Assembly: GCA_947648875.1 (NCBI GenBank)
Contig: CANSPM010000009.1
Coordinates: 1 to 64,000 of the forward strand
Direction of reading: 5' to 3'
Source: an uncultured Lachnospiraceae bacterium
GTDB lineage: Bacteria; Bacillota; Clostridia; Lachnospirales; Lachnospiraceae
DNA length: 64,000 nt
Position 1 is the stretch's first letter, and each line of letters starts with the position of its first letter. The notes beneath the pieces are model-generated. The model saw only the letters and a list, made by a program, of their open reading frames with translations, was not told the DNA's origin and did not search any database. The position numbers were made by a program, and so were the translations under genes. Shown here one piece after another: positions 8,481 to 27,886 of the stretch.

Positions 8481-8509
8481 TTGAAAAAATACGAATTTTG
8501 GAATATAAT
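8481..8509 (+). promoter_or_regulatory. Sigma-A promoter of the AAA-DUF5682-VWA-SWIM-DUF4132 operon
   Basis: TTGAAA at 8481-8486 and TATAAT at 8504-8509, spaced 17 bp, predict a 5' leader of about 180 bases before the first gene. No other equally good promoter was found up to 27.9 kb, although a lone -10-like TATAAT at 19987-19992 precedes the second DUF4132 gene. Confidence 0.8.
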
Positions 8510-8694
8510 GAAAGAAATTTGAATAATTCGCATGAAACTGTATATACAAAACGGCATATACGGGCTTTATGCACAATAATCTGTAGATGTAAACGTTGCC
8601 GCCCGAAGCTGATTTTGTAAGATAGGTCAGAGGACAGGTAGGCAGGTTGAAATACAGAAAGTTTTATCATCTATACGAGGAAAGGGCGAGGATC

Positions 8695-9810
8695 ATGGAC
8701 GAACAAAAACTTTTGCGGCCTCCCGTGGAGGTACGGTATCGGGAGGAACTGGAGGCACTGAAGGCTGTGGACAGCGGAAAGAGGCCGGAGAACTGGCAGT
8801 TGTCCCCCAAGGCGGTGCGCACTTTTATCCTGGGCAGCAAGACTCCCGTCACGTATGAGGGAGGCACTGTCACAATCGGGAAAAAATACTTTGGAAATGA
8901 CGCTCTGGTGGAGCGGTGTATTATCACTCTGGCGGGCAACCGGGGACTGATGCTGGTGGGAGAGCCGGGCACGGCCAAGACCATGTTGTCGGAACTTCTC
9001 TCTGCCGCCATCTGTGGTGTCAGCACCAACACCATACAGGGGACTGCGGGCACCACGGAGGACATGATCAAATATTCCTGGAACTATGCGCTGCTGCTGG
9101 CTAAAGGCCCCAGCCGGGAGGCGCTGGTCCCCTCGCCCCTGTACGTGGGCATGGAGCAGGGGCTTCTCACCCGTTTTGAGGAGATCACCCGTACTCCTGC
9201 GGAAGTGCAGGACAGCCTGATCAGCGTACTCAGCGACAAGGTGCTGAACGTGCCGGAACTGGGGGATGAGGGAATACTCTTTGCCCGACCCGGCTTCAAT
9301 GTGATCGGTACGGCCAACACCCGTGACAAGGGCGTGAATGAGATGAGTTCCGCCTTGAAACGTCGTTTTAACTTTGAGACCGTCATGCCCGTGCGGGAGG
9401 TGGCCCTGGAGAAACAGATTATCTTAAATGAGGTCCGCAGTCTGGCGGCTGAGAGCCATATTGATATGCCCGTGGACGAGGATGTGGCGGAACTGCTGGC
9501 CACCACCTATCATGAACTGCGGGAGGGCGTATCTGACCTGGGCCATCGCATCGACAGTCCCAGTGCCGTTATGAGCACCGCAGAGGCGGTTTCCGTGTAC
9601 TATCAGACCATGATCGGCGGGTATTACTACGGGGACGGGAATATGGATGTGAACAGTCTGGTGCAGAACCTGGTAGGGGCCCTCTCCAAGGAGAACAAGG
9701 AGGACTTGGGGCGGGTAAAGGACTACTTTAACACGGTAATCAAGGATAAGGCAAGCAAGGAAGGTGGCTTATGGAAACAATATTACGAAGCCAGGAAATG
9801 GCTGAAATAA
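8695..9810 (+). CDS. MoxR-type AAA+ ATPase, YehL-like
   Basis: A 371-residue AAA+ ATPase of the MoxR class. Walker A GEPGTAKT at about 89-96; the Walker B segment reads LLTRFEEI near 155-163 (FEE rather than the common DE); sensor 1 is in GTANTRDKG near 204; the Arg finger region is SSALKRRFNFE near 218-228. A C-terminal helical lid includes GHRIDSPSAV. The start at 8695 follows a GAGG site. Order and content of the next genes match E. coli yehL-yehM-yehP-yehQ, as I recall them; YehL is one of the named MoxR subfamilies. MoxR ATPases typically partner VWA proteins as chaperone-like remodelers; the substrate here is unknown. Overlaps the next gene by 40 bp. Confidence 0.88.
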   Translation: MDEQKLLRPPVEVRYREELEALKAVDSGKRPENWQLSPKAVRTFILGSKTPVTYEGGTVTIGKKYFGNDALVERCIITLAGNRGLMLVGEPGTAKTMLSELLSAAICGVSTNTIQGTAGTTEDMIKYSWNYALLLAKGPSREALVPSPLYVGMEQGLLTRFEEITRTPAEVQDSLISVLSDKVLNVPELGDEGILFARPGFNVIGTANTRDKGVNEMSSALKRRFNFETVMPVREVALEKQIILNEVRSLAAESHIDMPVDEDVAELLATTYHELREGVSDLGHRIDSPSAVMSTAEAVSVYYQTMIGGYYYGDGNMDVNSLVQNLVGALSKENKEDLGRVKDYFNTVIKDKASKEGGLWKQYYEARKWLK

Positions 9811-12272
9811 AGCTGCTTCCCGTGAGGCACCACAGTCCGGCCTGCGCCCGGCAGGTGCAACGGGTGATCAAAGAGTGGCAGCCCCGGGCCGTGCTGATCG
9901 AGGGCCCGGCCACAGCCTGTACCCTGATACCGGCCATGATTGACCCGGCTACCAAAGCTCCCTTTGCCGTGTATTATTCCTATGATGACACCGCAGGGGC
10001 CGTGTCGGAGGAGAAGGAGAAATATCGCTGCTATTACCCTTTTCTGGATTATTCCCCGGAACTGGAAGCGTTGCGGACGGGTGCTGCCCAGGGGGCCCAG
10101 GTGGCTTTCATCGACCTGCCCTACGGCGATATCCTGGCGGCCTCCCAGGAGGGAAAAGGTATGCGCCAGGAGGGGGAGAAGAGCAACTATAACGATGACT
10201 ATCTGTTGTCTCGGAGCGCCTATGTCCGGCGTCTTTGCGAGAAGACCGGACTGCGCGGTTTTGACGAGTTCTGGGAGAAATATTTTGAGCTGGAGGGGCT
10301 TTCCCAGGACAGCGATACCTGGTTTGGAAATCTGCTGACATACTGCCGTCAGGCGAGGGAGAGCACCCCCCCGGAAGAACTTCGGGAGGAAGGATGTCTG
10401 GCCAGGGAGGCTTACATGGCCAAAAATATTCTGGAGAAGGCCCGCGAACTGGCGGGAACATCCCGGGCGTCTCACCTTGAGGAGGAAACGGCCGCGAGGA
10501 ACCGTATCCTGGTGGTGACAGGGGGATTTCACACCCCGGCCCTGGCGCAGAGACTGGGAGAGGAGGACGCGGGTGCGTCCAACGGTGCCTTTGCCTTGGA
10601 GGATCTCCCCAAAAAACTGGTGAGCGCCAAAGATCAGGGCGTCTACCTGATGCCCTATTCAATGGAGGCGGCGGACGCCTTGAACGGTTACGCCAGCGGT
10701 ATGCCCTTCCCAGGCTTTTATCAGGAGATATGGGAGCATGTGCAGGAGGCGGAGCAAGAGGCTCCGGAGGAAAAGGAGGAGGCTCCTCCTTATTTCAAGG
10801 CTGTGCTGGACATGATTGTGGGCACGGGCAAGGCCGTGCGCCGGGCGGAGGGAAGCGCCTCCACCTATGACGAGATCTGCGCCTGCTCCATGGTGGAGGG
10901 ACTGGCGGCACTGCGGGGAAAGCCCCAGCCGGGGGCCTATGAACTACAGGATGCGGTGCTGGCCTGTTTTGTAAAGGGAGAATACAATCTGGCCACAGAC
11001 GAGCCAATGAGACTGCTGCGGCGGCAGATGACGGGAAAACGGGTGGGGGAACTGTGCCGGAACGCGGGGGAGCCCCCGGTGCTACAGGATTTTCGGGTCC
11101 GATGCAAACAATACGGACTACAGACTTCCACAACCCTGGAAAATGAGGTGACACTCTCGGTTTTCAGCAAGAAAAAGCATCGACAGATGAGTATGTTTTT
11201 CCATCGACTGCTGTTTCTACAGGCGTCTTACGCCCGGCGTGTGAAGGGTCCCAACTTACAGACGGGCCGGGACCGAAATCTGATCAGGGAAATCTGGAAA
11301 TATAAATGGAGTGCCCAGGTCATGGCGGCGTTGATTGATGCCTCCGTGTATGGCGGTTCCGTGGAGGATGCGGCCAAGGGACTGTTGTCCGAGCGGCTGA
11401 AAAAAGCAGTGTATGCCCGGGAGGGCGCGTTGCTGCTCACCCAGGTGCTGGAGATGGGCCTGGAGGGACAGCTGGAGCAGGTGTATGGCAGACTGTCTGA
11501 ACTGCTTATGTCCGATATGGACTTTTACTCTCTGGCGGAAGCGCTGCGTTTGCTGACCATGGTGCGGCAGTTGCGTTGGCTCTATGATTCCGGACTGGAG
11601 ACCCGTGGGATGATCCTGACCTGCATGCGCAGGCTTTTGGGACTTTTGCCGGGGATGGCAAAGATTAAGGAAGAAGACATGAGTCGGTGTATGGAAGCGA
11701 TGAAGCTGCTGTACCAGGTTATCGGCAGGATGGAGCGGGAGGAGTCAAAAGACCGGGAAACATCCGGCATATCCGACGGGGAGGACACCCTTCTGGACAG
11801 TTTCTTTGACGCTTTGACGCTTATGGACCGGGACAGTGAGATTCAGCCCGGCGTACATGGCTGCGTACACGGGCTGCTGTATGGCGGAGGCCGGGAAGAT
11901 GTAAAGCAGATTGAGCAGGTATGCAGAGGATATCTGACGGGAACCAGGGAGCAGCTGCTGAAAACGGCCATGTTTTTCCGGGGGCTGTTCTATGGGGCTA
12001 AGGACCTGGTGTTTGTGGGCAATACTTTTTTGGGTATGCTGGACCAATTCTTAAAGCAGATCGGGCAGGAGGATTTCATGCTGCTTTTGCCGGAGCTGCA
12101 CATGGCTTTCACTTATTTTACCCCGGCGGAGACGGACCGGATTGCGGAGACGGCGGCAGGCTTCCACGGCAAGAGCCGCAGGGAGTTACAGGAGCAGGCG
12201 GCGGTTCCCGAGGCATGGTATCTGTACGGCCAGGAACTGGAAGAGTTTGCGCTGACGACGCTGTCCCCGTGA
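9771..12272 (+). CDS. DUF5682-family protein, YehM-like
   Basis: An 833-residue cytoplasmic protein of unknown biochemistry. The N-terminal domain has the diagnostic blocks LLPVRHHSPACARQV (about 14-28), AVLIEGPATA (about 42-51), YPFLDYSPELEALR and VAFIDLPYGD (about 109-118), then ILVVTGGFHTPAL near 244. The conserved His, Glu and Asp of these blocks suggest an enzyme-like fold, but the activity is not known. The C-terminal half is helical. Start 9771 follows AAGGTGG and lies inside the end of the ATPase gene; Met at 9798 is an alternative. The overlap implies translational coupling with the ATPase. It is the usual partner of YehL-type ATPases and VWA proteins. Confidence 0.8.
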   Translation: METILRSQEMAEIKLLPVRHHSPACARQVQRVIKEWQPRAVLIEGPATACTLIPAMIDPATKAPFAVYYSYDDTAGAVSEEKEKYRCYYPFLDYSPELEALRTGAAQGAQVAFIDLPYGDILAASQEGKGMRQEGEKSNYNDDYLLSRSAYVRRLCEKTGLRGFDEFWEKYFELEGLSQDSDTWFGNLLTYCRQARESTPPEELREEGCLAREAYMAKNILEKARELAGTSRASHLEEETAARNRILVVTGGFHTPALAQRLGEEDAGASNGAFALEDLPKKLVSAKDQGVYLMPYSMEAADALNGYASGMPFPGFYQEIWEHVQEAEQEAPEEKEEAPPYFKAVLDMIVGTGKAVRRAEGSASTYDEICACSMVEGLAALRGKPQPGAYELQDAVLACFVKGEYNLATDEPMRLLRRQMTGKRVGELCRNAGEPPVLQDFRVRCKQYGLQTSTTLENEVTLSVFSKKKHRQMSMFFHRLLFLQASYARRVKGPNLQTGRDRNLIREIWKYKWSAQVMAALIDASVYGGSVEDAAKGLLSERLKKAVYAREGALLLTQVLEMGLEGQLEQVYGRLSELLMSDMDFYSLAEALRLLTMVRQLRWLYDSGLETRGMILTCMRRLLGLLPGMAKIKEEDMSRCMEAMKLLYQVIGRMEREESKDRETSGISDGEDTLLDSFFDALTLMDRDSEIQPGVHGCVHGLLYGGGREDVKQIEQVCRGYLTGTREQLLKTAMFFRGLFYGAKDLVFVGNTFLGMLDQFLKQIGQEDFMLLLPELHMAFTYFTPAETDRIAETAAGFHGKSRRELQEQAAVPEAWYLYGQELEEFALTTLSP

Positions 12273-12312
12273 CGAATCGAGGGGGCCGCATATATCAGGA
12301 AAGAGGAAATAT

Positions 12313-13437
12313 ATGGATGACGGACAGGTTCTGAACAGATGGCGGCTGGTGCTGGGAAAATATGCCTCCGGGCAGATTTCCTACAGCGATGGCGGCGTCA
12401 ATTATATGGGCATGGAAGAGGTGCTGGATTACCTGTATTCCCGGGAGTATGGGGAGGAGCAGGAGATCCGGCAGGATCGCCGGGGAGGAAGCGAGGGCTC
12501 CCGGCTGACCGTACCCAAGTGGCTTCATGAGATGAAGAAACTTTTTCCCAGACAGACGGTGGAGATCATGGAGCGCCACGCTCTGGAAAAATATGAGATG
12601 ACCGAACTTTTGACAGATCCGGAGGTACTGCGGCGATTGGAACCCAACAGGGAATTGCTTAAGACCATCATGGGGCTGAAACATATGATGAAAGGCGAGG
12701 TGCTACAGCTGGCCAGAGAGATTGTGCGCAAGGTGGCCCAGGAGATCATGGAAAAACTGGAGCAGGATGTGCGCCGGGCGCTACAGGGTCGCCTGGACCG
12801 CACCAGCGGCAGTCCCGTCCGAAGTCTGCGCAATCTGGATATCCAAAAAACCATACGGAAAAATTTGCAGCATTTTGACCGGGAGAGGGAGCAACTGGTG
12901 CTACAGCAGGTATACTTTCATTCCAGATTAAAGCGATATCACCAGTGGCGGGTGGTGATCTGCGTGGACGAGAGCGGCTCCATGCTGGATTCTGTGATTC
13001 ACAGCGCCATCATGGCGGGGATATTCGCCAGGCTTCCAATGCTGGATACCCGACTGGTAATCTTCGACACCAATGTGGTGGACTTAAGCGGTCATGTGGA
13101 AGACCCGGTGGAGACGCTGATGAGTGTGCAGCTGGGGGGCGGCACCAACATAGCGGGGGCGTTGAGTTACTGTGAGACGCTGATTGATAATCCCCATAGG
13201 ACGCTGGTGGTGCTGATCTCGGATCTGTACGAGGGCGGCGGCTATCACAATCTGTACAGCGTCAGCCGCAGTATTATCGAGAGCGGGGCCAGACTGATTG
13301 CGCTGACGGCCCTGGATGTGACGGCAACTCCCAATTATGACCGGCACGCGGCGGCCCAGCTGGCCCAGATGGGCGCTTTTGTGGGAGCCATGACCCCGGA
13401 GCAGCTGGCGGAACATGTGGCGGATATGGTGGGGTAG
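12313..13437 (+). CDS. VWA-domain protein (CoxE-like), YehP-like
   Basis: A 374-residue protein with a helical N-terminal half and a C-terminal von Willebrand factor A domain. The metal-ion-dependent adhesion site is complete: VDESGSM (DxSxS, about 217-223), the Thr in LGGGTNIAGAL (about 274-284), and the Asp in VLISDLYEGG (about 300-309). VWA proteins of this kind bind target proteins through the metal and are remodelled by MoxR ATPases. The ATG has AAGAGGAAAT before it. It stands 40 bp after DUF5682 and 46 bp before the SWIM gene, in the same order as in the E. coli yeh cluster. No membrane segment, so a cytoplasmic adaptor is likely. Confidence 0.87.
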   Translation: MDDGQVLNRWRLVLGKYASGQISYSDGGVNYMGMEEVLDYLYSREYGEEQEIRQDRRGGSEGSRLTVPKWLHEMKKLFPRQTVEIMERHALEKYEMTELLTDPEVLRRLEPNRELLKTIMGLKHMMKGEVLQLAREIVRKVAQEIMEKLEQDVRRALQGRLDRTSGSPVRSLRNLDIQKTIRKNLQHFDREREQLVLQQVYFHSRLKRYHQWRVVICVDESGSMLDSVIHSAIMAGIFARLPMLDTRLVIFDTNVVDLSGHVEDPVETLMSVQLGGGTNIAGALSYCETLIDNPHRTLVVLISDLYEGGGYHNLYSVSRSIIESGARLIALTALDVTATPNYDRHAAAQLAQMGAFVGAMTPEQLAEHVADMVG

Positions 13438-13483
13438 ACCTGATGGAAGGTCTGTTTGCTGGAAGAGATGCGAGGCTAAAGGA

Positions 13484-15982
13484 ATGTTGGATTGGAGACA
13501 GAGCCTGGCGGGTGTGGATGAAGATTACCTGGTAGGCATCAGCAACAAAGGAATTGTGAAAAGGGCATACAAGGATATGGAGGCGGCGGGCAGTGAAGCC
13601 CTTGCAGCGACAGAGGGGCTTGACTGGAACGCGCAGGAACTCACGGTGGCGGCGGGGGGCGAGACCGTGACTATACGCTTTCCGCTGGGAGAGTGCCAGT
13701 GCAGCTGCCCCTCCCGAAGCATATGCCGTCATGTGGTTATGGCTATATTGCTGGCCCGGCAGGCGGCTGAAACAAGTGGAGCGGCTAGCGGAGAGTCCGC
13801 AGAGCGGAGCGCCGGAGAAGGCGGTAGCGGAGAGTCCGCAGAGCGGAGCGCCGGAGGAGGCGATAGCGGAGAGTCCGCGGAGCGGAGCGCCGGAGGAGGC
13901 GGTAGCGGAGAGTCCGCAGAGCGGAGCGCCGGAGGAGGCGGTAGCGGAGAGTCCGCAGAGCGGAGCGCCGGAGGAGGCGGTAGCGGAGAGTCCGCAGAGC
14001 GGAGCGCCGGAGGAGGCGATGGCGGAGAGTCCGCAGAGCGGAGCGCCGGAGGAGGCGGTAGCGGAGAGTCCGGGAAGAAGAGCGCCGGGGGAACAGGGAG
14101 CGGAGAGTCCGTGGGGCAGATGGTATGGCAGGAGATTCTGACACAGCCCAGAAAGCCGCTGCTGCGGGCGCTGGGCAGCAGGGCGCTGCGCCGTCTGGTA
14201 TCCGCGATGGAGGCTGAAACAGTACCCCAGGTGGAGCGCGGCACGGTGGTCCGTATGCGGCTGCCGGGGCAGGACATCACCGTAAAGCTCCTATCGCCTC
14301 TGGAATACAGCGCTTGTACCTGCCATAAGAAAGAACTGTGCAGCCACAAGGCGGAGGCCATTCTATGGTGTCAGTATCTGGAAAAACAGCTGACGGTTCA
14401 GGAACTGGCGGGAGAATTGGAGCAGGAACCCGCTTTTGATCTGAAGGAACTGCGGGATGCGGCAGGGCAGGTAAAAGACTGTCTGGAACATTTGCTGGAG
14501 ACAGGACTTGCGAGAAGCGGCACAGAGCAGGCGCAGGAGCTGGAGCGGCTGGCCATTCTCTGCCATAATGCGGGTCTGCCGGGCTGGGAGGGAGATATCC
14601 GCGCGCTGGCGGAAGGCTATGAGAGGTACTTGCGCCGGGCGGCGGGACAGACCATGGAGAAGCTGGCGGGACAGCTGCAGAGGCTGTATGAGAAGACCGT
14701 GGAGCTGGGCCGGCTGGTGGAGGAGGCTCTGTCCCGGGCCGGGAAGGACGGGAGAGATGCCGCCGCAGGAGAAACAGAGCAAAACGAAGCGGCAATGTCT
14801 GCCTCCCGACCGGAAAAGAGTACGGCCTCTAAGATCCAGGCGCTGGCGGGTGAATTTCGCTCGGAATACCTGCCGGTAGGAAATCTGGAACTGACAGGGA
14901 TCACGGTGGAGCATTTTGTCACCGATTCAGGCTATGAGGGGGATACCGTGTATTTTCTGGAAATGGAATCGGGGACATGGTATACCTATACCAGTGCCCG
15001 GCCCACTTTTTACGAGGGCAAAAGGAGAACCGCTTACCAGGAGAAGGCGCCCGCTCCCTGGGGCATTCCCCTGTCGCTGGAAGGTCTGGCCGGAGTGCGG
15101 CTACAGCTACAGGGAGCGAAATGTGATGCCGGAGGACGGCTGTCTTCCACCCAGGAGACCAGGGGAGAAATTCTGGGTAAAAGCGAATTGACGGCGGCGA
15201 AGCTGGAGGGCTGGTACTACCGGGATTACGGCAGACTTTTCGCGGAGCAGATTCCCGGCCCGGCGGCAGGCCCCGGCGGTCATACCCGCCTGGCTTTTGT
15301 GCAGGCGGCGCGTTTTGAACGAGGGCATTTCAATGAGATCTCGCAGAAGCTGGAACTGCCCATCTGGGATAAAGAAGACCGCCAGGTGATGGTGGAACTG
15401 CCCTATTCCAAACGGGACGAAGCGTCCATACGGTATCTGGAACGTCTGAAAAAAAAGCAGCAGCCCTGTTTTTTGGGCAGAGTGTACCTACAGGACAGCC
15501 GGATCTGTCTGTACCCTGTGGACCTTTTGGAACGCAAGGAACTGGAGGGGGCGGAATATGAGACGGAAAACACTCCGGAGTACGTGGAGGAAGACGGCGG
15601 TGAAAACCCGCCTGCTCCGGGAAAGGCAGGCGTTGCCGCCGGGGCGAGAGGACATGACAGGGAAGCCTGCCAGGCGCTGCAAAGTTTTTTGGAGGAAGTC
15701 AGCTGGTTGTTGCAGGAGATTTACCAGGTGGGCAGCGCTACGGTACAGGACAGTACCCTGGAGGCGCTGCGCCGCGCAAAGAAACAGGGTGAGGCTTATG
15801 GGATGACAACTCTTGGAGACTGGCTGCGGCAGTTGGAGGAAGAGATGTCCAAGTCCCGTCATCGTCTTCGGCATCAGCCATCGGATATCATGGGGATATT
15901 TTGCAGGTTATGGCAGTATGTGCAGCTTTGCCGCCAGCGGACTACCTATGATATTGCGGGCCTGATTTATAGGGGCAGGTAA
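13484..15982 (+). CDS. Double SWIM zinc-finger protein with minisatellite linker, YehQ-like
   Basis: An 832-residue protein with two SWIM zinc fingers (CxC...CxH): CSCPSRSICRH at about residues 72-82 and CTCHKKELCSH at about 277-287. SWIM modules bind nucleic acid or protein. Between them lies a Gly/Ser/Glu/Arg linker made of eight 13-residue repeats (SGESAERSAGGGG type), encoded by 39-bp DNA repeats. The long C-terminal part is helical and without a recognised fold. Met at 13484 is chosen (GAGG eight bases upstream); the open frame begins 69 bases earlier inside the VWA gene. It is the fourth member of the yehLMPQ-like module. The linker is unusual, because the E. coli counterpart as I recall it (under 700 residues) is shorter. 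Confidence 0.82.
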   Translation: MLDWRQSLAGVDEDYLVGISNKGIVKRAYKDMEAAGSEALAATEGLDWNAQELTVAAGGETVTIRFPLGECQCSCPSRSICRHVVMAILLARQAAETSGAASGESAERSAGEGGSGESAERSAGGGDSGESAERSAGGGGSGESAERSAGGGGSGESAERSAGGGGSGESAERSAGGGDGGESAERSAGGGGSGESGKKSAGGTGSGESVGQMVWQEILTQPRKPLLRALGSRALRRLVSAMEAETVPQVERGTVVRMRLPGQDITVKLLSPLEYSACTCHKKELCSHKAEAILWCQYLEKQLTVQELAGELEQEPAFDLKELRDAAGQVKDCLEHLLETGLARSGTEQAQELERLAILCHNAGLPGWEGDIRALAEGYERYLRRAAGQTMEKLAGQLQRLYEKTVELGRLVEEALSRAGKDGRDAAAGETEQNEAAMSASRPEKSTASKIQALAGEFRSEYLPVGNLELTGITVEHFVTDSGYEGDTVYFLEMESGTWYTYTSARPTFYEGKRRTAYQEKAPAPWGIPLSLEGLAGVRLQLQGAKCDAGGRLSSTQETRGEILGKSELTAAKLEGWYYRDYGRLFAEQIPGPAAGPGGHTRLAFVQAARFERGHFNEISQKLELPIWDKEDRQVMVELPYSKRDEASIRYLERLKKKQQPCFLGRVYLQDSRICLYPVDLLERKELEGAEYETENTPEYVEEDGGENPPAPGKAGVAAGARGHDREACQALQSFLEEVSWLLQEIYQVGSATVQDSTLEALRRAKKQGEAYGMTTLGDWLRQLEEEMSKSRHRLRHQPSDIMGIFCRLWQYVQLCRQRTTYDIAGLIYRGR
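13787..14098 (+). repeat. 39-bp minisatellite, eight units, in frame
   Basis: Eight consecutive 39-bp units, each starting AGCGGAGAGTCC, with seven near-identical copies and one degenerate final copy (GKKSAGGTG), plus a partial ninth. Units differ by few bases. Because 39 is a multiple of three, gain or loss of units keeps the SWIM protein in frame and only changes linker length. Confidence 0.95.
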
Positions 15983-16131
15983 TACAATCCGCCATGCGCT
16001 CTGTCCTGGGGATGCGGATAGAGAGCGCGTAAAAGCGGCGGGCCGCATGAATTACGAGTTCTCAAGAGCCGTAATGGAAGAAGGGCAAAACAGGCAAGAG
16101 CACATGTGAAACGGAAACGGGGAGGGGCAAT
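15983..16131 (+). other. Spacer between SWIM and first DUF4132 gene
   Basis: 149 bp with no gene and no convincing terminator, so read-through into the DUF4132 genes is plausible. Only the GGAGGGG ribosome binding site at its end is clear. Confidence 0.4.
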
Positions 16132-19100
16132 ATGCTGCATGGAGAAAATGCGCAGACAGACAGGGTGCTTAACATATTGGAAGAACTGCATCTTCGTGAC
16201 GGCGAGACGGAGATTGTAGAGGAATTTCTGAGAGGGGAGGCTGGCGAGGAGATTCTGGCGGGGCTGTCTCCCAGAAATACGACTACCTATTTTGCCGGCA
16301 AATACAGGCTGTTTCAGGAATTGTTTGAGACCTATGTACAAGAGAACCTTAAGGAGGAGGCATCCCGACTTTTGCGCCTGTTATACGCCATGGGCGCTTA
16401 TAACTGCTGCGACTGCTTTGAGAACCCTGAAAGATTTATGGATATTGTGGAAAAGGGAACTGTGGCCATAGACCGGGGAAAAGCCGTGGCTATCGCCGCC
16501 CAGTACATTTTTTTACAGGTTTACCGTCTGAACACCAACCACAGGTGCCAGTTCCTTACGACCAGACTGTGGGAACGTCTGGTAAAATTTGCGGAGAGGA
16601 GTCCGGAAATTGTGCTACAGGCTTGGAAGGAGTTTGATCAGGGGCAAATAAACGGTCGTATTCTGCTGATGGCGCTGTATTTTTATCTGCGCTGTGACAG
16701 AGACGGGCGGGCGGCGGGCGAGATCCCGCCCCAGTTGCCGCAGCAGGCGGAACAAGGGCTAAAGTCAGCGCCTTCGTTGCCATCAGAGTTTCAGGGCTCC
16801 ATCGGGGAGCGGGCACTTTTCAGTACATATGAGGAGACGCTGACAGAGCTTCTCCGCATGATTCTGAAAGCGGAGGCGGCAGGGAAAAAGGAGATCCGGG
16901 ACATTCAGGAGGGGATTCTCCAGGGTAAATGGCAGGACAGCCTGCTTCAGGGGATTCAAAAATGGGCCGTCAACGTGTCGGTATTTGAACTGATAACCAA
17001 TTGTGCCTCCATAAACTACATGTTTTCCGAAAAACTCCGCAATGTGCTCCGGGTATGCGCTTCGCTAAATCCTTCCAGATTTCTGGACGCGCTTGTCAGG
17101 CTGGACCCCCGAGAGGAACTGGGCAATATGGCGGGAAAAATGGAGGAACTCTTCTGCATATCCGATCCGGATGTAATGTCCTGGCTGCTGGTCGTTTTGG
17201 ACGAAACCCCCAGATTTGGGATAGAGCCGGAAAAAGTCAAAGCGATGATTCTCCCCGCCCAGTACCGCAAAAATCCGCAACAGTATCTGTTGGCCTACAG
17301 GAAAGCAAATTCTGATTTGAGAAACGCGCTGGCGGGAACCGTCCGGGATGAGGCCCCGGAGGTGTATCGGCAGGTGGTGATGCCCCAGGCGGCCTCTCAG
17401 AAGGAGAGAATCATATTCCGGCTCACCGAAAAGGAAATCTGCGCCCGGGAATGCAGAGATTATCTGAAGGGTTTGACGGAGTTGTCCGCCCTCTATGCCA
17501 TCAGGGGGAAACTGGTGTCTACCTGGTATAAAGAGAGCGACGCAAGAAAAGCCCTGGAACGGTACTATGAAGCGTACAGAGAGGAAGAGTTTTATGCCCG
17601 GTGCATGGCTTATATGGCACTGCGGCATTCGGGACACTTTTTTAACGCCGGTTTTATCGGCAAAAGCAGGGAAGCCTGTGAGGAGGTGCTGGAACATACT
17701 TTTCGGGGAATGACCCTGGCGGGAGTGGGACTGGCGGAGCAGATTCAGGTGGTCTGCCGGATGGTTGATGAGGAATATTCGGAGAAGAGAAAGGAAGAGA
17801 TTACCCACAGATGCATTCCCGTTTTCCGACGATATCTTGTTGAGCGACCGCAGGAGACGGAGAACGCTCTGGCCGGGGCCGAGGCCTATGGCCGTTACTT
17901 TGCTCTGCTGGTGTACAACAGCGCGGCGCAGGATGGTGGTGAAGCTACTGCGCAAGAGGACGCCTGGCAGGCGCAGATACTTTTTTACAGCCAGGACAGT
18001 TCCAAGCTGGTAAGGCAGGAACTGGAGAAGATGCTGGCGGCCCGCCCGGGCTGGAGATCTCGGATCATGGAACTGCTCTCTTCTAAAAAATCTGCGGAGC
18101 GGGAAATGGGTATCCGCGTGCTGGCGGGGTGGAATACGCCCTTGGACCGGGAGGCCCTGCAGGCCCTGTACGAGAAGGAGAAGAGCGCCAAACTTCGCGC
18201 GCTGCTTGATACTGTCCTAAACCCGGATTCCACGGGAGCGCAGGGAAAGGGTGGCAGCGGCAGCTGTCCGGCCCTGAACAGAGAAGATCTGGTCAAAAAC
18301 CTGCATAAGGGTGGCAAAAAGCGCAGTTTGGCCTGGGCTTGTGAGACCCCGTTCAGTCCTGTACATAAAAGGAACAAAGAAGCGGCATCAGAGGAATATC
18401 TCCAGGCCTTGCTGCTGTGCTATTCCTCCATGTCCAGACCCGGCATTAACAAAGATGCCGCATTACTGGCGGAGGAACTGGAAGACCGGGAACTGGCCAT
18501 CTATGTGTGTGAACTCTTTGATAAATGGATGGAAGCCGGCGCGGAGGCCAAGAAACGCTGGGTGCTGTATGCTTCCTCTATCCATGGGGGCGGTGAAATT
18601 ATAAAGCGGCTCTATCATCAGATTCAGGAATGGCCCCGGAATGCCAGAGGAGCCATAGCGGCGGAGGCGGTGCAGGCGCTGGCGTTAAGTCCCCAGCCCC
18701 AGGCCCTGCTGCTTGTGGACGGCATTGCCCGCAAATTCAAGTACGGACAGGTAAAGAATGCAGCGGGCCAGGCGTTGGAGTTTGCCGCAAACCAGCTGGG
18801 ACTTACCCGGGAGCAGCTGGAGGACAAGATCGTGCCCAGCCTGGGATTTGACGAGCGCAGGGAACGGCATTTCGACTATGGAAACCGCAGTTTTACCGTG
18901 ACGATCACACCTGCTTTGGAGGTGGAAATTTTTGACGGGAATGGCAAGAAACTGAAAAATATGCCTGCTCCAGGGTCCAGGGATGACGAAAAGAAAGCGG
19001 CGGCGGCATACGCGGCGTTTAAGGAGATGAAAAAGCAAATGAAGACTACCGTTTCCAGTCAGAAGCAGCGGCTGGAGACGGCTTTGTCCACGGAGCGTCT

Positions 19101-19839: not shown

Positions 19840-20013
19840 GTTGCGCGGTTCAGGCCCCCAAGAGAGATCATCTGTGCCGGGACAGTCAGGCGTTGAATGG
19901 GAACTGGCATTCAGGCGGGGCAACACAGAAAGGTTTTGCTGTATAGGCCCAGGTCTGTCTTAAGCGGATGAGACGTACAGGTAAAATATAATTTCAACAA
20001 GGAGGAACAGAAT

Positions 20014-23000
20014 ATGTTGCATGCGGATAATTCGCAGAATGAAAAAGCGGTGAGCGCCCTGGAGTGTCTGCGGCTCAGTGCCGAAGAACTGGAACTTGCG
20101 GAAAAGTATCTGAGGGGGGAAGTATCGGAGGAAGCCCTGGCAGGCATAAAATTTAGGGATCTAACCGGAATTTCGCAGAGTAAGAGCCAATATAGGCCTC
20201 TTCAGGACCTTTTTGATTTCTACTTTAAGAAAAACCGTTATGAGGAAGCGGAAAGACTTCTACGACTGCTGTATGCCGTCTGCGCCTATACCTGCTGTGT
20301 GTGTTTTGCGTATATGCACGGTTTCAAAAATGCTGTGGAGCAGGGAAGATTGCGGATAGACCGGGAGATGGCGCTGGCCATCTACGCGCAGGATGTCTAT
20401 TTGTTCTGTTCCCACAACAGTACGTACTATCCCCCCAGTTGTTTTGCCATCACCAGGCAGATGGAGGTACTGGCGGAGTTTGCGGGGCGGGACCCCGCCG
20501 TGGTGCGCAAGGCTGTGAAAGCCTTTGACAGACAGAGTAGGTGTGGAAATATTTTGCTGTACGCTCTGTATTTTTATCTGTGCTATAACGGAAAGGACGT
20601 GACCGGGGAGAATAGGGGGCAGATCCGGATTCTCCCCCAGGACCGGGAGTTGTTGGGAGAGTATGAGGATATTATGGTGGACCTTCTGAATGATATTTTT
20701 GCGCGGGGGGCATCTGAAAACCGGGAGATGGAAGAGATCCAGGAGAGTATCCGCCAGGGAAATTTACAGGACGGGCAGCTACAGGCGATCCGTAAGCGGG
20801 CCGTTGACAGCGTGTCATTTATGGCGGTGAGCAATTGTGCGTTTGTAAATTACATGCTTTCCCCACAACTCTACGATGTGTTACGGGTTTGCGGGGCAGT
20901 CTCACCAAGCAGGTTGTTGAACGCAATGGTACAGTTCGATCCCCGGGGAGAACTTGCACGCATCGGCGGGAAATTACAGGATATTTTCGGATTATCAGGG
21001 AAGAGCATTATGGTCTGGGCTCTGGCTGCCCTGTCCAGAGTACAGGAGGAGGGAGCGGAAAATAAAATCATACTGGAAAGCATACTTTCGCCTCTGCTTC
21101 ACAGGGAACCTGCCGTTGTTCTGGCCGGTTACAAAAAGGCCAACTGTACCGTGGGCAGTATGCTGGCGCAGATGGTCCGGGCGGAAAACCCGGAGATGTA
21201 CCGGCGGGAGATACTGGCGCAGGACAATGAGTGGAGAGAAAAGATCATTACCCTGATAAGCCACAGGTTAATCTGTGCCAGGGAAGTCAGAGAATATCTG
21301 GAGGGGGGCGCAGACCTGGCATCGCTCTCTCCGTTCAGAACACAGCTGGGAGGGGTTTATGGCGGAGGTGCAGAAAGGAAGGCCCTGGAAGAATATGACC
21401 AGATTTACCAGGATGAGGAATTTTACAATCGCTGTATGGGCTTAATGGCGCTGGGGGGAAGGGGAAATTTCTTTACCGCCACTCTCTTTGACGGCGAGGC
21501 TATCCTCCTGGATCGCCTGGAGCATAGCTTTCGGGGGATGGATTTAGCGGGCGCGGACCTGGATCAACAGCTACAGATATTATCCCTGATGGTGGACTGC
21601 ACCTATTCGGATACGAGAAAATACGACATCACCCATGGCTGTATCCCCATTTTTCAGAAATATCTGGTGGAGCGCACCCGGGAGATGGAAAATGCCTTTG
21701 CCAGGGCCGGGGCATACGGGCGGTATTTTGCCCTGTTGGTGTATGGCAGTGAGGCAAAGCCGAAGATGATGGAGGAACTGCGGGAGAACCGCAGGGAGGC
21801 GCTGGAGGAGTTTGCCAAGGGCAAGAATGCCTGGAAGACACAGATTCTGTCCTACAGTCAGGACAGTGCCAAGCTGGTCAGGCAGGAATTGGAGAAGATA
21901 CTGGCGGATCGCCCCGACTGGAGGGACGGGGTGACGCAGCTGCTTTCTTCTAAAAAGGCGGCGGAGCGGGAGATGGGTATTCTGGTGTTGGCCCGGTGGA
22001 ATACCTCCCAGGACAGAGAGGCGCTACAGGCTCTGCACGAGAAAGAAAAGAATGCCAAGATCCGCACACTGTTAGACACTGCGCTGGGGCGTGCTTCCGG
22101 GAGCGGGGAAGACTCTGAAAAGGGGGGTTCCACATTTACAAAGGAGGATCTGGTCAGGAATCTGCACAAAGGCGGAAAGAAGCGCGGTCTGGCCTGGGCT
22201 TATGAGGGACCTTTCAGCCCGGTACATACCGTGAAGGGGGAGCTGGCGGCGGAGGAGTACCTACAGGCGCTGCTGCTGTGCTACTGCTCCATGACCAAGC
22301 CCGGTATCAGCAAGGACGCCGCGCTGTTGGCGGAGGATTTAAATTCTCAGGAACTGGCCGTCTATGTGGGAGAACTTTTTGACAAATGGATGGAGGCGGG
22401 AGCGGAAGCCAAAAAGCGCTGGGTGTTATACGCGGCTTCCATTCACGGCGGCAGTGATATCATAAAGCGCCTCCATCACCAGATCCAGGAGTGGCCCCAG
22501 AATGCCAGAGGCGCCATCGCGTCGGACGCGGTGCAGGCTCTGGCCCTGAGTCCCCAGCCCCAGGCGCTGCTGATCGTGGATGGCATCGCCCGGAAATTCA
22601 AGTTCAAACAGGTAAAGACGGCGGCAGGCCAGGCTCTGGAGTTTGCCGCCAGCCAGCTGGGACTCACCCGGGAGCAGCTGGAGGACAGGATTGTGCCCAG
22701 TCTGGGATTTGACGAGCACATGGAACGGCGTTTCGACTATGGCAGCCGCAGTTTTACCGTGACCATCACGCCTGCTCTGGAGGTGGAGATCTTTGATGAG
22801 AACGGCAAGAAGCTGAAAAACATGCCTGCCCCGGGGGCCAAAGACGATGCGGAGAAGGCGGCTGCGTCCTACGCGGCGTTCAAGGAGATGAAAAAGCAGA
22901 TGAAGGCCACCGTCTCCAGTCAGAAACAGAGGCTGGAGATGGCCCTGTCCACAGAGCGGCTGTGGACGGCCCCCGCCTGGCGGGAGCTGTTTGTGCAAAA

Positions 23001-23736
23001 CCCCATTATGCATCAGTTTGCCATCGGCCTGATCTGGGGTGTGTACGTGGAGCACAGGCTGGTACAGAGTTTCCGCTATATGGAGGACGGGTCCTTTAAC
23101 ACGGAAGACGAGGAGGAATATATCCTGCCGGAGGCCCGGCCGGAGACAGCGTCGGATGCGCGGCCGGAGTCCTTGCCCAAACAGGTGCAGATCGGTCTGG
23201 TACATCCCCTGGAGTTGTCGGCGGAGAGTCTGGAGACCTGGAAACAGCAACTTCAGGACTACGAGATCACCCAGCCCATCGAGCAGCTTGACCGGGCGGT
23301 CTATCATCTCACCCAGGAGGAACAGGAAGCCAAAAGTCTGGAACGCTTTGGCGGTATGCTCATCAATGATCTGTCCCTGGGAGGCAAGCTGACCACCCTG
23401 GGGTGGTACAGAGGGTCCGTGCAGGATGCGGGCGGCTATTACACCTATTACAGGGAGGATGCCTCTCTGGGCCTGGGGGCGGAATTGCATTTCTCAGGCA
23501 GTTTTGTGGGCAGTGGCAGCATGGGCGGCGAGGAGGTTACAGTGTATGATGTGCGCTTCTACAAGGCGGGGACTATAGCGAGAGGGTCCTATTGTTATGA
23601 TGAGGTAGAGGGGGAGAAGCAGATTCCTCTGAAAGACATTCCTCCACGGTATTTCAGCGAGATCGTGTGGCAGCTGACCAAAGCCACTGCGTCCAGCCAG
23701 GAGCGGGATGAGGGGTGGAAAGCGGAGATGCGGTAA
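20014..23736 (+). CDS. DUF4132-type giant protein, copy 2
   Basis: A 1240-residue paralogue of the preceding protein. The amino terminus is alike (MLHADNSQNEKAVSALE against MLHGENAQTDRVLNILE), then an N-terminal half of only moderate similarity, and a C-terminal half closely matching copies 1 and 3 from LHKGGKKRGLAWAY (about 716) on. Residues about 783-990 are encoded by DNA identical to the equivalent part of copy 3. The variable linker before IGLVHPLELS is short and Pro/Glu/Ala-rich. The ATG follows AAGGAGGAA. A 174-bp gap separates it from copy 1, with a TATAAT at 19987-19992 but no good -35. No signal peptide or membrane helix. Confidence 0.78.
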   Translation: MLHADNSQNEKAVSALECLRLSAEELELAEKYLRGEVSEEALAGIKFRDLTGISQSKSQYRPLQDLFDFYFKKNRYEEAERLLRLLYAVCAYTCCVCFAYMHGFKNAVEQGRLRIDREMALAIYAQDVYLFCSHNSTYYPPSCFAITRQMEVLAEFAGRDPAVVRKAVKAFDRQSRCGNILLYALYFYLCYNGKDVTGENRGQIRILPQDRELLGEYEDIMVDLLNDIFARGASENREMEEIQESIRQGNLQDGQLQAIRKRAVDSVSFMAVSNCAFVNYMLSPQLYDVLRVCGAVSPSRLLNAMVQFDPRGELARIGGKLQDIFGLSGKSIMVWALAALSRVQEEGAENKIILESILSPLLHREPAVVLAGYKKANCTVGSMLAQMVRAENPEMYRREILAQDNEWREKIITLISHRLICAREVREYLEGGADLASLSPFRTQLGGVYGGGAERKALEEYDQIYQDEEFYNRCMGLMALGGRGNFFTATLFDGEAILLDRLEHSFRGMDLAGADLDQQLQILSLMVDCTYSDTRKYDITHGCIPIFQKYLVERTREMENAFARAGAYGRYFALLVYGSEAKPKMMEELRENRREALEEFAKGKNAWKTQILSYSQDSAKLVRQELEKILADRPDWRDGVTQLLSSKKAAEREMGILVLARWNTSQDREALQALHEKEKNAKIRTLLDTALGRASGSGEDSEKGGSTFTKEDLVRNLHKGGKKRGLAWAYEGPFSPVHTVKGELAAEEYLQALLLCYCSMTKPGISKDAALLAEDLNSQELAVYVGELFDKWMEAGAEAKKRWVLYAASIHGGSDIIKRLHHQIQEWPQNARGAIASDAVQALALSPQPQALLIVDGIARKFKFKQVKTAAGQALEFAASQLGLTREQLEDRIVPSLGFDEHMERRFDYGSRSFTVTITPALEVEIFDENGKKLKNMPAPGAKDDAEKAAASYAAFKEMKKQMKATVSSQKQRLEMALSTERLWTAPAWRELFVQNPIMHQFAIGLIWGVYVEHRLVQSFRYMEDGSFNTEDEEEYILPEARPETASDARPESLPKQVQIGLVHPLELSAESLETWKQQLQDYEITQPIEQLDRAVYHLTQEEQEAKSLERFGGMLINDLSLGGKLTTLGWYRGSVQDAGGYYTYYREDASLGLGAELHFSGSFVGSGSMGGEEVTVYDVRFYKAGTIARGSYCYDEVEGEKQIPLKDIPPRYFSEIVWQLTKATASSQERDEGWKAEMR
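22361..22984 (+). repeat. 624-bp tract identical to 26379-27002 (copy-2 side)
   Basis: Line-by-line comparison with 26379-27002 shows no mismatch over 624 bp. The bases just outside (22360 and 22985) differ, and similarity drops on both sides. Such an abrupt block of identity inside diverged paralogues points to recent gene conversion or a partial duplication. Confidence 0.93.
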
Positions 23737-23797
23737 TAACAGAGCGTGTTTGCAAGAAAAATGAGGAAATCCAAATACAAACCAGGAGGAAAAAAGT

Positions 23798-26700
23798 ATG
23801 TTGCGGGCAGAAAATTTGCAGAACGAAAAGATTATAAGTGCCCTGGAGGGGCTGGGGCTTGACGGCGGGGAACTCGCCGCCGCAGAGAAGTATCTGGGGG
23901 GCGAGGTCGACGAGGAGGCGCTGGCGGGGTTCACATTTCGGGATCTGACGCAGATGCCGTCTGAAAAAACGGAGGCGCTGGAAGCCTTGTTTTCATCGTT
24001 CTTTAATAAGAAACGATACGAGGAAGCGGCAAAACTTTTCAATCTGGTGTATGCGGTGGGGGGATCTACCTGTCATGCCTGTTTCCGCTATATTTATGAG
24101 TTCAACAATGTCATGCAAAAGGATCTGATGCAGGTGGACCGGGCCAGGGCGCTGGCGGTGTATATTCAGAATGTGGCCGACAACTACCGCCAAATGGGAA
24201 TGTACAATTTTAGAGCCGCCATGAACACTTTTGCGAAGTCTGACCCTCAGATTGTCTTACGGGCCTATCAGGAGTATAAGGGGAAGTATTCCAACGGAAA
24301 GATTATACTGCTGACATTATATTTCTATATGCGTTGCGGGAAGAACGAACTGGCTGCGGCAACGTGCAAAAGCGGAAAAACCGGGAAGTCTGCCTCCTCC
24401 GGGCAGCCGACGGAGGGAGTGCTGGGGGGTATCAAAAAACTCCTGGGCGGAAAGAATCAGTCCGGTAACGGGGAGGATATTGCCCGAGAAGATTCTCTTT
24501 ATGGGCTGAATCTGGGGGAAGAGATTTTAAACGACAGGGACAAGAGTTTATTGAGAGAATACGAGGAAATGGTGGTGGCGCCGCTGGGAATAGTATTTCA
24601 TCCTGATGCCTCCAAAGATCCTGTGATTGTAGAAATAAAAAGGCGGATTTTTCAGGGAGGCCTGAGTGGGAGCGCGCTGAACGGGAACGATACCGCCAAG
24701 GCTGCCTCCGCCAAGGTGACATTGTCCCAGGCCAAAACCTTCCAGGCCATGTCATCCCCCGAACTGCTTCGGGGCCTCCGTGGTCGGGCGGTCAATGAGA
24801 CTGTATTTCAGCTGCTGGGGGGCTGCGCCTATGTCAACTATATGCTCTCAGAGCGGTTGCGGTCTGTGGTCATGGTCTGCGCTGCCGTCTCCGCCGAACA
24901 GATGCTGGGGGAAATGGCTGACATGGACCTGCGGCAGGAACTGGAACAGATCGGCGGGAGACTGGAGGAGCTTTTCGGTTTTTCCGGCAGGGAGACCATT
25001 GCCTGGGCTGCGGATCAGGTGCAGAAGGGAGTGAATTATCGCGCGGCAGTCAATGAGGATTGCCTGAAAGCAATTCTGCGGGGGCAGTTTTTCAGGTACA
25101 GGGACGAGTTTCTGGAGGGGTATAACAGGGCGGAGTATCAGGCGGCGGCTGTCATGGCGGAAATTATTAAGGAGAGCGATCCCGAGCTGTACCGCCAGGA
25201 GGTGCTGGTCAACAGTCGGGATACCCAGCGGGACAAAGTAAAGGATCTTCTTTTACAGGGCGGAGGAAATATGCAAATGCCCCCGGAGTGTGGGGACTAC
25301 CTGGGGGGCAGGGCGGATTTAAGCGCGCTCTACGCTGTCAGAGATCAGCTTGCGGGTTCGTCGTATGGGATAAACTGGCAGTGCCGCAAAGCGCTGGAGC
25401 AATATTATGATACCTACGCCGACGAAGATTTCTATGGCCGTTGTATGGCTTTTATGGCATTGCGGGAGGCTTGTTATTTCTTCACTGTGTTCCAGGCGAA
25501 GGCATCTGAGAAAGAGGCGTTTCAATGTGAACTGGAACATATTTTCCTGGGCTTTAAGCACGAGGGGCTTAAGCTGGCGGATCAGCTTAAGGTGGTGAGT
25601 CTGCTGATTGACGGTACCTATGAGACGAATCGGAAGCAGGCCGTGACGGAGGGCTGCATTTCTATATTTCAACAGTATCTGGCGGAGGATACGAAGGGAA
25701 CGGCGGAAGTTTTTTCCCAGGCGGGGGCCGATGGGCGATGTTTTGCCTTACAGGTCTACGACAGGGAAGCCAATTTGCGTATTACAGAGGAGAACAGGAA
25801 AAACGCGGAGATCGCTCTGGATGAATTTGCCAAGGGTAAGGATGCCTGGCAGGAGCAGATTCTGTCTTACACACAGGACAGTTCCAAACAGGTAAGGCAG
25901 GAACTGGAGCGGATGCTGGCTGACCGTCCCGGCTGGAGAGAACAGGTCACAGCTCTGCTCTCCTCCAAGAAAGCGGCGGAGCGGGAGTTAGGCATCCGGG
26001 TGCTCACAGGTTGGAATACTCCCCAGGACAGGGAAAACTTGCGGAAACTATATGAGAAGGAGAAAAACGCCAAAGTTCGCGCCTTGCTGGAGTCTGCCCT
26101 GGGCTGCGCGCCCACAGGAGAGGAAGAGGGTAAGGGAGGCGCAGAGCCGGTTCTGACACGAGAGGATAAGGTCAAAGAATTGCACAAGGGGGGCAAAAAG
26201 CGAAGCCTAGCCTGGGCTTATGAGACTCCCTTTTGTCCGGTACACAAAAAGAACGGAGAGCCGGCCTCGGAGGAGTATCTACAGGCGCTGCTGCTGTGCT
26301 ATTCTTCCATGCCAAAGCCTGGTGTCAGCGCCGATGCCGCTCTGCTGGCGGCGGATCTGGAGCCCCGGGAACTGGCTCTCTATGTGGGAGAACTTTTTGA
26401 CAAATGGATGGAGGCGGGAGCGGAAGCCAAAAAGCGCTGGGTGTTATACGCGGCTTCCATTCACGGCGGCAGTGATATCATAAAGCGCCTCCATCACCAG
26501 ATCCAGGAGTGGCCCCAGAATGCCAGAGGCGCCATCGCGTCGGACGCGGTGCAGGCTCTGGCCCTGAGTCCCCAGCCCCAGGCGCTGCTGATCGTGGATG
26601 GCATCGCCCGGAAATTCAAGTTCAAACAGGTAAAGACGGCGGCAGGCCAGGCTCTGGAGTTTGCCGCCAGCCAGCTGGGACTCACCCGGGAGCAGCTGGA

Positions 26701-27886
26701 GGACAGGATTGTGCCCAGTCTGGGATTTGACGAGCACATGGAACGGCGTTTCGACTATGGCAGCCGCAGTTTTACCGTGACCATCACGCCTGCTCTGGAG
26801 GTGGAGATCTTTGATGAGAACGGCAAGAAGCTGAAAAACATGCCTGCCCCGGGGGCCAAAGACGATGCGGAGAAGGCGGCTGCGTCCTACGCGGCGTTCA
26901 AGGAGATGAAAAAGCAGATGAAGGCCACCGTCTCCAGTCAGAAACAGAGGCTGGAGATGGCCCTGTCCACAGAGCGGCTGTGGACGGCCCCCGCCTGGCG
27001 GGCATTGTTTGTGGAAAATCCCATTATGCACCAGTTTGCCATCGGCCTGATCTGGGGCGTCTATGAGGGACATAAGCTGGTGCAGAGCTTCCGCTATATG
27101 GAGGACGGGTCCTTTAACACGGAGGATGAGGAGGAGTATATCCTGCCGGAGCCGGGCTCAGAATCCGTTTCAGGGACAGCGCCGGAGCCTGTGTCCAAGT
27201 CCGTGCCTTCCCAGCCGGAAACTGTTGCAGGGGCATTGACAGAGCCTGTAGCAGAAACTGTTGCAGGGGCATTGACAGAGCCTGTAGAAGGGTCTGTGTC
27301 GGAGTGTGTAGCAGGAGGGTCTGTGGCAGGGCAGGTGCAGATTGGTCTGGTGCATCCTCTGGAATTGTCGGCGGAGAGTCTGGAGACCTGGAAACAGCAG
27401 CTGGAGGACTACGAGATCACCCAGCCTGTGGAGCAGCTAAACCGGGCGGTTTACTGCCTCACCCAGGAAGAGAGGGAGAGCAAAAGCCTGGAACGCTTCG
27501 GAGGCATGATCCTCAATGACCTGTCTCTGGGCGGCAAGCTGACGGCCATGGGATGGTACCGTGGTTCCGTGCAGGACGCAGGCTGTTTTGACACCTACTA
27601 CCGGGAGGATGTCTCCCTGGGCCTGGGGGCAGAGCTGCACTTCTCCGGCAGCTATGTGGGCAGTGGCAGCATGGGCGGCGAAGAGGTTACGATGTATGAT
27701 GTACGTTTTTACAAGGCGGGGACTATAGAGAGAGGGTCCTACTGCTACGATGAAGCAGAGGGAGAGAAGCAGTTGCCCCTTAAGGATATTCCTCCAAGGT
27801 ATTTCAGCGAAATCGTGTGGCAGCTGACCAAAGCCACCGCTTCCAGCAAGGAGAGAGACGAGGACTGGAAGGCGGAGAGGCGGTAA
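23798..27886 (+). CDS. DUF4132-type giant protein, copy 3 (longest)
   Basis: A 1362-residue paralogue with the same start pattern (MLRAENLQNEKIISALEG) and the C-terminal DUF4132-like half from LHKGGKKRSLAWAY (about 795). It is longer than copies 1 and 2 for three reasons: a Gly/Lys/Ser-rich insert around residues 190-230 (SGKTGKSASSG, GGIKKLLGGK), another near 290-325, and an expanded Pro/Glu/Val/Ala linker before IGLVHPLELS that contains a duplicated 36-bp unit. Residues about 861-1068 match copy 2 with no nucleotide change. A strong CAGGAGGA site precedes the ATG, 61 bp after copy 2. It is the last gene of the 19-kb run. Confidence 0.78.
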   Translation: MLRAENLQNEKIISALEGLGLDGGELAAAEKYLGGEVDEEALAGFTFRDLTQMPSEKTEALEALFSSFFNKKRYEEAAKLFNLVYAVGGSTCHACFRYIYEFNNVMQKDLMQVDRARALAVYIQNVADNYRQMGMYNFRAAMNTFAKSDPQIVLRAYQEYKGKYSNGKIILLTLYFYMRCGKNELAAATCKSGKTGKSASSGQPTEGVLGGIKKLLGGKNQSGNGEDIAREDSLYGLNLGEEILNDRDKSLLREYEEMVVAPLGIVFHPDASKDPVIVEIKRRIFQGGLSGSALNGNDTAKAASAKVTLSQAKTFQAMSSPELLRGLRGRAVNETVFQLLGGCAYVNYMLSERLRSVVMVCAAVSAEQMLGEMADMDLRQELEQIGGRLEELFGFSGRETIAWAADQVQKGVNYRAAVNEDCLKAILRGQFFRYRDEFLEGYNRAEYQAAAVMAEIIKESDPELYRQEVLVNSRDTQRDKVKDLLLQGGGNMQMPPECGDYLGGRADLSALYAVRDQLAGSSYGINWQCRKALEQYYDTYADEDFYGRCMAFMALREACYFFTVFQAKASEKEAFQCELEHIFLGFKHEGLKLADQLKVVSLLIDGTYETNRKQAVTEGCISIFQQYLAEDTKGTAEVFSQAGADGRCFALQVYDREANLRITEENRKNAEIALDEFAKGKDAWQEQILSYTQDSSKQVRQELERMLADRPGWREQVTALLSSKKAAERELGIRVLTGWNTPQDRENLRKLYEKEKNAKVRALLESALGCAPTGEEEGKGGAEPVLTREDKVKELHKGGKKRSLAWAYETPFCPVHKKNGEPASEEYLQALLLCYSSMPKPGVSADAALLAADLEPRELALYVGELFDKWMEAGAEAKKRWVLYAASIHGGSDIIKRLHHQIQEWPQNARGAIASDAVQALALSPQPQALLIVDGIARKFKFKQVKTAAGQALEFAASQLGLTREQLEDRIVPSLGFDEHMERRFDYGSRSFTVTITPALEVEIFDENGKKLKNMPAPGAKDDAEKAAASYAAFKEMKKQMKATVSSQKQRLEMALSTERLWTAPAWRALFVENPIMHQFAIGLIWGVYEGHKLVQSFRYMEDGSFNTEDEEEYILPEPGSESVSGTAPEPVSKSVPSQPETVAGALTEPVAETVAGALTEPVEGSVSECVAGGSVAGQVQIGLVHPLELSAESLETWKQQLEDYEITQPVEQLNRAVYCLTQEERESKSLERFGGMILNDLSLGGKLTAMGWYRGSVQDAGCFDTYYREDVSLGLGAELHFSGSYVGSGSMGGEEVTMYDVRFYKAGTIERGSYCYDEAEGEKQLPLKDIPPRYFSEIVWQLTKATASSKERDEDWKAERR
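26379..27002 (+). repeat. 624-bp tract identical to 22361-22984 (copy-3 side)
   Basis: Partner of the tract in copy 2, at a constant offset of 4018 bp. It ends at GGCGGG, after which copy 3 reads CATTG and copy 2 AGCTG. Confidence 0.93.
27218..27287 (+). repeat. Tandem 36-bp duplication in the copy-3 linker
   Basis: GAAACTGTTGCAGGGG begins at 27218 and again at 27254, and the two units are identical over 34 bp. They encode ETVAGALTEPVA twice, in the interdomain linker that also varies between the three paralogues. Confidence 0.9.

Follow-up and report, generated by a model that had tools for sequence, protein, structure and literature searches.

The closest known counterpart of the locus described here is the molR region of Escherichia coli (yehF/yehH-yehI and yehLMPQ); the yeh genes are carried by almost every E. 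coli and extend across many phyla, and we know of no function assigned either to them or to the present module. The latter lies on the forward strand at positions 8481 to 27886 of a 64,000-nucleotide stretch of DNA (hereafter the window), which comes from a draft genome (3.86 Mb, 105 contigs) of an uncultured Lachnospiraceae bacterium, and encodes a MoxR-type AAA+ ATPase, a DUF5682 protein, a VWA protein, a SWIM zinc-finger protein and three giant DUF4132 proteins, referred to as A, B and C. The same five families are found in both loci, on one strand and with the first four genes in the same order, and comparison with the E. coli MG1655 locus upheld the earlier note on this DNA, which had equated these four with yehL-yehM-yehP-yehQ and DUF4132 with yehI. 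The DUF4132 genes, directly adjacent to the other four in both loci, are situated upstream in E. coli but downstream in the window; in addition, a WGR domain is annotated on some of the E. coli DUF4132 copies, and a LexA-box-like site is seen in E. coli, whereas none is seen in the window. Databases already contain these gene families as well as the E. coli locus.

MoxR-vWA ternary conflict systems, in which a MoxR AAA+/vWA core is combined with VMAP, iSTAND, FtsH or beta-propeller partners and the vWA protein usually, though not obligatorily, carries an effector domain at its C-terminus, have been described by Kaur et al. (2020, PMC7159879). The window module likewise joins a MoxR AAA+/vWA core to additional partners; these, however, are DUF5682, SWIM and DUF4132, and no effector domain is fused at the C-terminus of its VWA protein, as the VWA_CoxE match runs to residue 369 of 374. 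No Pfam family named VMAP, iSTAND, FtsH or beta-propeller was matched above cut-off by the seven proteins, although Pfam may not model each of these, and bpMoxR matched the window ATPase below cut-off (19.4 of 27 bits). The terms SWIM, MolR, DUF4132, WGR and yeh are absent from the main text of PMC7159879, as available. A further DUF5682 system is found in the window's own genus (L119, L120, L121, L122 and L126), with MoxR, DUF5682 and VWA in all five loci; in L119, the one locus scanned with Pfam for it, SWIM and a HEAT-like protein precede MoxR-DUF5682-VWA. This system differs from the window module in having no DUF4132 in five stretches of 20 kb, and a protein of about 660 amino acids with a weak, below-cut-off HEAT match adjoins in both loci tested (L119, L122). 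In the literature searched, whose coverage leaves out most subscription journals, neither the five-gene association nor the exchange of N-terminal halves reported below was described, and nothing was found on DUF5682 or on a SWIM zinc finger together with MoxR; none of the papers naming two or more of yehL/M/P/Q/I was, judged by its title, a functional study.

The exchange is most clearly seen in E. coli. In MG1655, yehI adjoins yehLMPQ with the DUF4132 genes just upstream and yehH annotated as a pseudogene; a 13.5-kb segment from this strain has at least a partial match in 5,347 of the 5,426 complete E. coli genomes compared, and 3,974 of them match 80% or more of its length. Thirteen further strains were compared, nine chosen from 40 evenly spread rows and four for an unusual-looking N half. 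Seven of these carry three tandem DUF4132 genes and six carry two, and the C half of the extra copy was found in 1,604 of the 5,426 genomes; the occurrence of several DUF4132 genes per core set is therefore recurrent and not peculiar to the window. Between strains Nissle and R2, the N halves of copy 2 share 59% amino acid identity with a synonymous divergence (dS) of 2.01, a saturated value that is effectively a lower bound, while the C halves share 98% identity with a dS of 0.06. At an 85% cut, copy 2 falls into three N-half classes among the 13 strains, copy 1, which is variable in a stretch near alignment columns 500-600, forms two classes among seven strains, and yehI forms one class in 12 strains, the comparison excluding MG1655 and the yehI of AR96.3A (annotated internal stop). 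The copy-2 C half is present in 5,275 of 5,426 genomes, and two copy-2 N-half query alleles were covered to at least 80% in 664 and 3,375 of them, counted separately, so that the two sets may overlap, with other genomes matching the alleles in part. The core genes, by comparison, vary evenly, yehL, M, P and Q being 96-99% identical between R2 and BL21 (dS 0.13-0.20). As judged from these sequences, the different N halves joined to one C half in complete E. coli genomes are swapped alleles of one copy. Annotated breaks in yehL, yehM, yehP or yehI were also observed in six strains (L132, L133, L137, L138, L169, L171), so the module decays in some E. coli lineages, and a resistance transposon inserted in the DUF4132/yeh region has been reported for an ST131 sublineage (PMC9334617).

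A related division of the protein is found among the window's own giants, A (16132..19839, 1235 amino acids; Pfam PF13569, 2e-50), B (20014..23736, 1240 amino acids, a mosaic; 2.5e-49) and C (23798..27886, 1362 amino acids; 2.1e-48, in two stretches). The N halves are 45% (A-B), 35% (A-C) and 43% (B-C) identical and the C halves 78%, 79% and 86% in the same order, which bears out an earlier proposal that the three copies combine a conserved C half with diverging N halves. Although genes B and C are 70% identical overall, a tract of 624 nucleotides is the same in both (22361-22984 in B, 26379-27002 in C), and in a second draft genome (G042) A and B have 1,241 identical nucleotides in genes 81% identical overall; in the other tandem sets examined (L067, L075 and E. 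coli R2) the longest identical run is at most 33 nucleotides. The two halves also group differently: in the window, the N-half tree joins A with B (support 0.993) and C with L032 (0.994), whereas the C-half tree joins B with C (0.95), and in G042 the N half gives B with C (0.6, weak) and the C half A with B (0.992), the conflict being judged by comparing support values rather than by a formal topology test. Together with the identical tracts, this conflict makes gene conversion in the C half the simplest reading of the sequences, although draft assembly error might also produce it. Three pairs of module-adjacent orthologues gave N against C identities of 73 v 86%, 67 v 90% and 94.3 v 94.6%.

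The model of giant A (residues 36-1235, mean predicted local distance difference test score (pLDDT) 87.1) consists of a helical solenoid followed by an alpha/beta C-terminal part, and a PDB sequence search found no convincing relative for DUF4132. In giant C, the DUF4132 domain is split by a Pro/Val-rich insertion, within which lies a 36-bp repeat of 1.9 copies (27218-27287). DUF4132 genes also occur away from the module. The window's genome carries a fourth, distant one (L006, 13187-16987 of G000:C39), whose identity to A-C is 19-22% over the N half and 51-52% over the C half; G042 has six (L111, L113, L114, L115), of which three form a tandem roughly 13 kb from its DUF5682 and the others stand singly on different contigs; and L124 (3503-8719) encodes a solo giant of 1738 amino acids with DUF5724, DUF4132 and DUF7737 domains.

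Across genomes, the conserved MoxR, DUF5682, VWA and SWIM set is accompanied by one to three DUF4132 giants. To survey this association, family profiles were derived from the window and E. coli proteins and iterated, without curated cut-offs, and the loci compared were the best 80 of at least 581 DUF5682 relatives from a scan of GTDB contigs. All five families are present in 51 of these 80, many of the others being cut by contig ends, and in 39 of the 49 that have 8 kb or more of flank on each side; of the remaining ten, one lacks SWIM, two have MoxR, VWA and SWIM without DUF4132, one has MoxR and VWA only, and six have DUF5682 alone. DUF4132 is located downstream in 26 of the 49 and upstream in 14. 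Three Brachyspira loci (L084, L087, L091) carry DUF5682 without MoxR, VWA, SWIM or DUF4132 in the roughly 22 kb examined. The nearest named relatives of the window DUF5682 among the matches listed are from Lachnospiraceae (best-segment identity 83, 81 and 80%). Within the window's genus, DUF5682 was found in 37 and DUF4132 in 32 of 101 genomes (16 and 10 of the 48 better assemblies). Once second pieces of split matches were dropped, 42 DUF5682 and 52 DUF4132 rows became 39 and 47; at 17 of the 39 DUF5682 places, DUF4132 lies 6-21 kb away on the contig. A second, higher-scoring subfamily accounts for another 14, in no case with DUF4132 on the contig, and at the remaining eight DUF4132 is absent from the contig, but each genome carries it elsewhere.

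Several residues of the core proteins are highly conserved. The MoxR-type ATPase (8647..9810; AAA_5, 1.3e-33) retains the P-loop G105-K111, N224 and R239/R240 in at least 95% of 67 sequences, and the CoxE-type VWA protein (12313..13437; VWA_CoxE, 2.1e-46) retains D219, S221, S223, T278 and D304 in at least 95% of 65; both the P-loop and the VWA metal-site residues are intact in the window proteins, for which no PDB sequence relatives were found at E 0.001 (MoxR) or E 0.01 (VWA). In the SWIM protein (13415..15982; SWIM, 8e-5, above cut-off), C96, C98, C104 and H106 are conserved in at least 95% of 59 sequences. An in-frame 39-bp repeat of 8.5 copies (13781..14111, forward strand) encodes a Gly/Ser/Glu-rich linker of this protein, and in many relatives its final 110 or so residues are often a separate downstream open reading frame (e.g. 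L063, 13512-15935).

The DUF5682 protein (9771..12272; PF18934, 1.6e-102) is predicted, with moderate support, to consist of a Tiki/EreA-type N-terminal domain followed by a HEAT-like solenoid (model pLDDT 87.6). R19, H20, E44, R212, G251 and H254 are invariant in an alignment of 51 sequences, and they fit the His/Glu...His motif layout of the Tiki/TraB/EreA superfamily. DUF5682 resembles the Tiki/TraB/ChaN/EreA superfamily in motif layout and probable N-terminal fold, but differs in its long helical C-terminal part and in its weak sequence similarity: at E up to 5, ChaN was matched by 12 and TraB by 7 of 50 members (best 5.6e-4 and 1e-4), neither match was listed for the window protein itself, and hhalign gave a probability of 1.4%. 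A PDB sequence search found no convincing relative for DUF5682, and a TraB alignment searched against PDB sequences found none either. The window's genome also contains an erythromycin-esterase-family gene (L166, 20693-21685 of G000:C48) and is the only one of 101 genomes sampled in the phylum with such a match above cut-off.

The positions of the open reading frames and Pfam profile searches agreed with the seven genes and family names proposed earlier from sequence alone, and the promoter proposed at 8481 was found there as a sigma-70-like site (TTGAAA-17-TATAAT, 8481..8509, forward strand) matching 11 of 12 consensus positions. This site suggests a promoter for the module and says nothing firm about one single transcript; a scan of 20 kb returned 20 promoter-like sites, where shuffled sequence gave a mean of 9.6 (sd 3.1). 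The first four genes are separated by a 40-nucleotide overlap (MoxR/DUF5682), a 40-nucleotide gap (DUF5682/VWA) and a 23-nucleotide overlap (VWA/SWIM), and gaps of 149, 174 and 61 nucleotides follow (SWIM-A, A-B and B-C). The module is preceded by genes for a GH2 enzyme, a sugar transporter and a chemotaxis receptor and followed by those for a solute-binding protein, a GH115 enzyme and a GDSL lipase. Near relatives share the upstream genes (chemotaxis receptor 81% identical in L031; GH2 83% and transporter 87% in L032), whereas the downstream genes have no close match in the compared loci, so that the setting held in common is that of the upstream side alone.

Support for a link to stress comes from E. 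coli, where CTGGATAAAATTACAG starts 25 nucleotides before the first DUF4132 start codon in all ten loci checked and fits 12 of 16 positions of the LexA consensus; no Firmicutes LexA-like site was found in the 64-kb window. The E. coli DUF4132 genes are probably raised by DNA damage through LexA. Published lists place molR among LexA-regulated genes (PMC11039860, PMC4576408) and SOS genes (PMC3978071), and a DUF4132 operon was raised upon depletion of DdrO (PMC8533742). The last of these papers suggests a molybdopterin link but found molybdate genes such as moeA and moeB to be unaltered when DdrO was depleted. Molybdate regulation as the main role was set aside, since the idea derives from the molR name.

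Constant C halves joined to varying N halves are what one would expect if the latter were interchangeable parts for recognition. We propose that each DUF4132 protein would bind a particular target through its N-terminal helical solenoid and dock onto the common core through its constant C-terminal domain. ATP spent by the MoxR-VWA pair would then alter the bound complex, the SWIM protein may bind nucleic acid or a protein partner, and the Tiki/EreA-like domain of DUF5682, with its His/Glu/Arg/His set, would be the likely hydrolytic output. Recombination, including gene conversion in two genomes, would hold the C halves alike while the N halves diverge. The adaptor logic alone we consider rather probable, and a modular surveillance or remodelling machine falls a little short of even chances. 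The fuller version, a chromosomally fixed, damage-responsive surveillance system in which one MoxR-VWA-DUF5682-SWIM machine with a Tiki-like hydrolase output serves DUF4132 proteins that are interchangeable sensors, their N solenoids exchanged between strains and paralogues and their docking half constant, is less likely and tentative. Two observations call for caution. Every half compared is under purifying selection on average, with a ratio of nonsynonymous to synonymous divergence (dN/dS) of 0.12-0.31 for the N halves, so that faster change alone is no proof of recognition; and another LexA-like site, matching 11 of 16 positions, lies elsewhere in seven of the ten E. coli loci, so that matches of such strength occur away from the DUF4132 promoter.

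The alternative that survives best, though we think it unlikely, is a chaperone with a housekeeping role in assembly or the loading of metal, similar to CoxD-CoxE, with the DUF4132 proteins as large clients or scaffolds whose N halves tolerate change. The VWA protein is of the CoxE type, the module is near-fixed in E. coli, and the faster N halves in two of the three module-adjacent orthologue pairs are under purifying selection, all of which would suit such a role; however, tolerance leaves unexplained how an N half with a dS of 2.0 came to be joined to a C half with a dS of 0.06 within one species, and the distribution of DUF5682 in the window's genus is patchy. Slightly less probable still is an anti-phage or inter-strain conflict system related to the MoxR-vWA ternary systems, in which the N halves would sense phage or rival factors. 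The core shared with the published systems, the tandem sensor-like copies with exchanged halves and the SOS-type control in E. coli speak for it. Against it, PADLOC 2.0.0 profiles matched no defence system in the seven proteins (best E 0.014), the window neighbours are metabolic and the chromosomal locus is near-fixed in E. coli. Also against it, none of 26 pattern matches in IMG/VR was confirmed, one of 50,697 phage records holds a DUF5682 relative (MT835988, 10599-12755), and DUF5682 occurs in 36 of 72,556 plasmid records, some of them chromosome-sized; on the IMG/VR and phage-record results a phage origin was likewise set aside. MT835988 itself is a 14-kb record named Bacteriophage sp. and may be a bacterial contig. 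The earlier note had likened the set to conflict or stress systems; stress gained support from the LexA-box-like site and the molR lists, while conflict, given the PADLOC result, the carbohydrate-use neighbours and the near-fixation, is no more than a possibility. Lastly, that the identical tracts of the window and G042 are assembly artefacts is very improbable, because although both genomes are drafts, near-repeats are prone to mis-joining and three other tandem sets lack such a tract, it falls in the same gene half of two different drafts, and the E. coli N-half exchange is drawn from complete genomes.

The allele pattern points to the half of DUF4132 worth testing for binding and supplies natural variants for comparison. 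If a surveillance machine with interchangeable DUF4132 sensors is indeed what the module encodes, it would be a type of MoxR-vWA system beyond those described in the literature consulted, present in nearly every E. coli, and E. coli would possess a sensing machine that has so far gone unrecognised and that varies in specificity from strain to strain.
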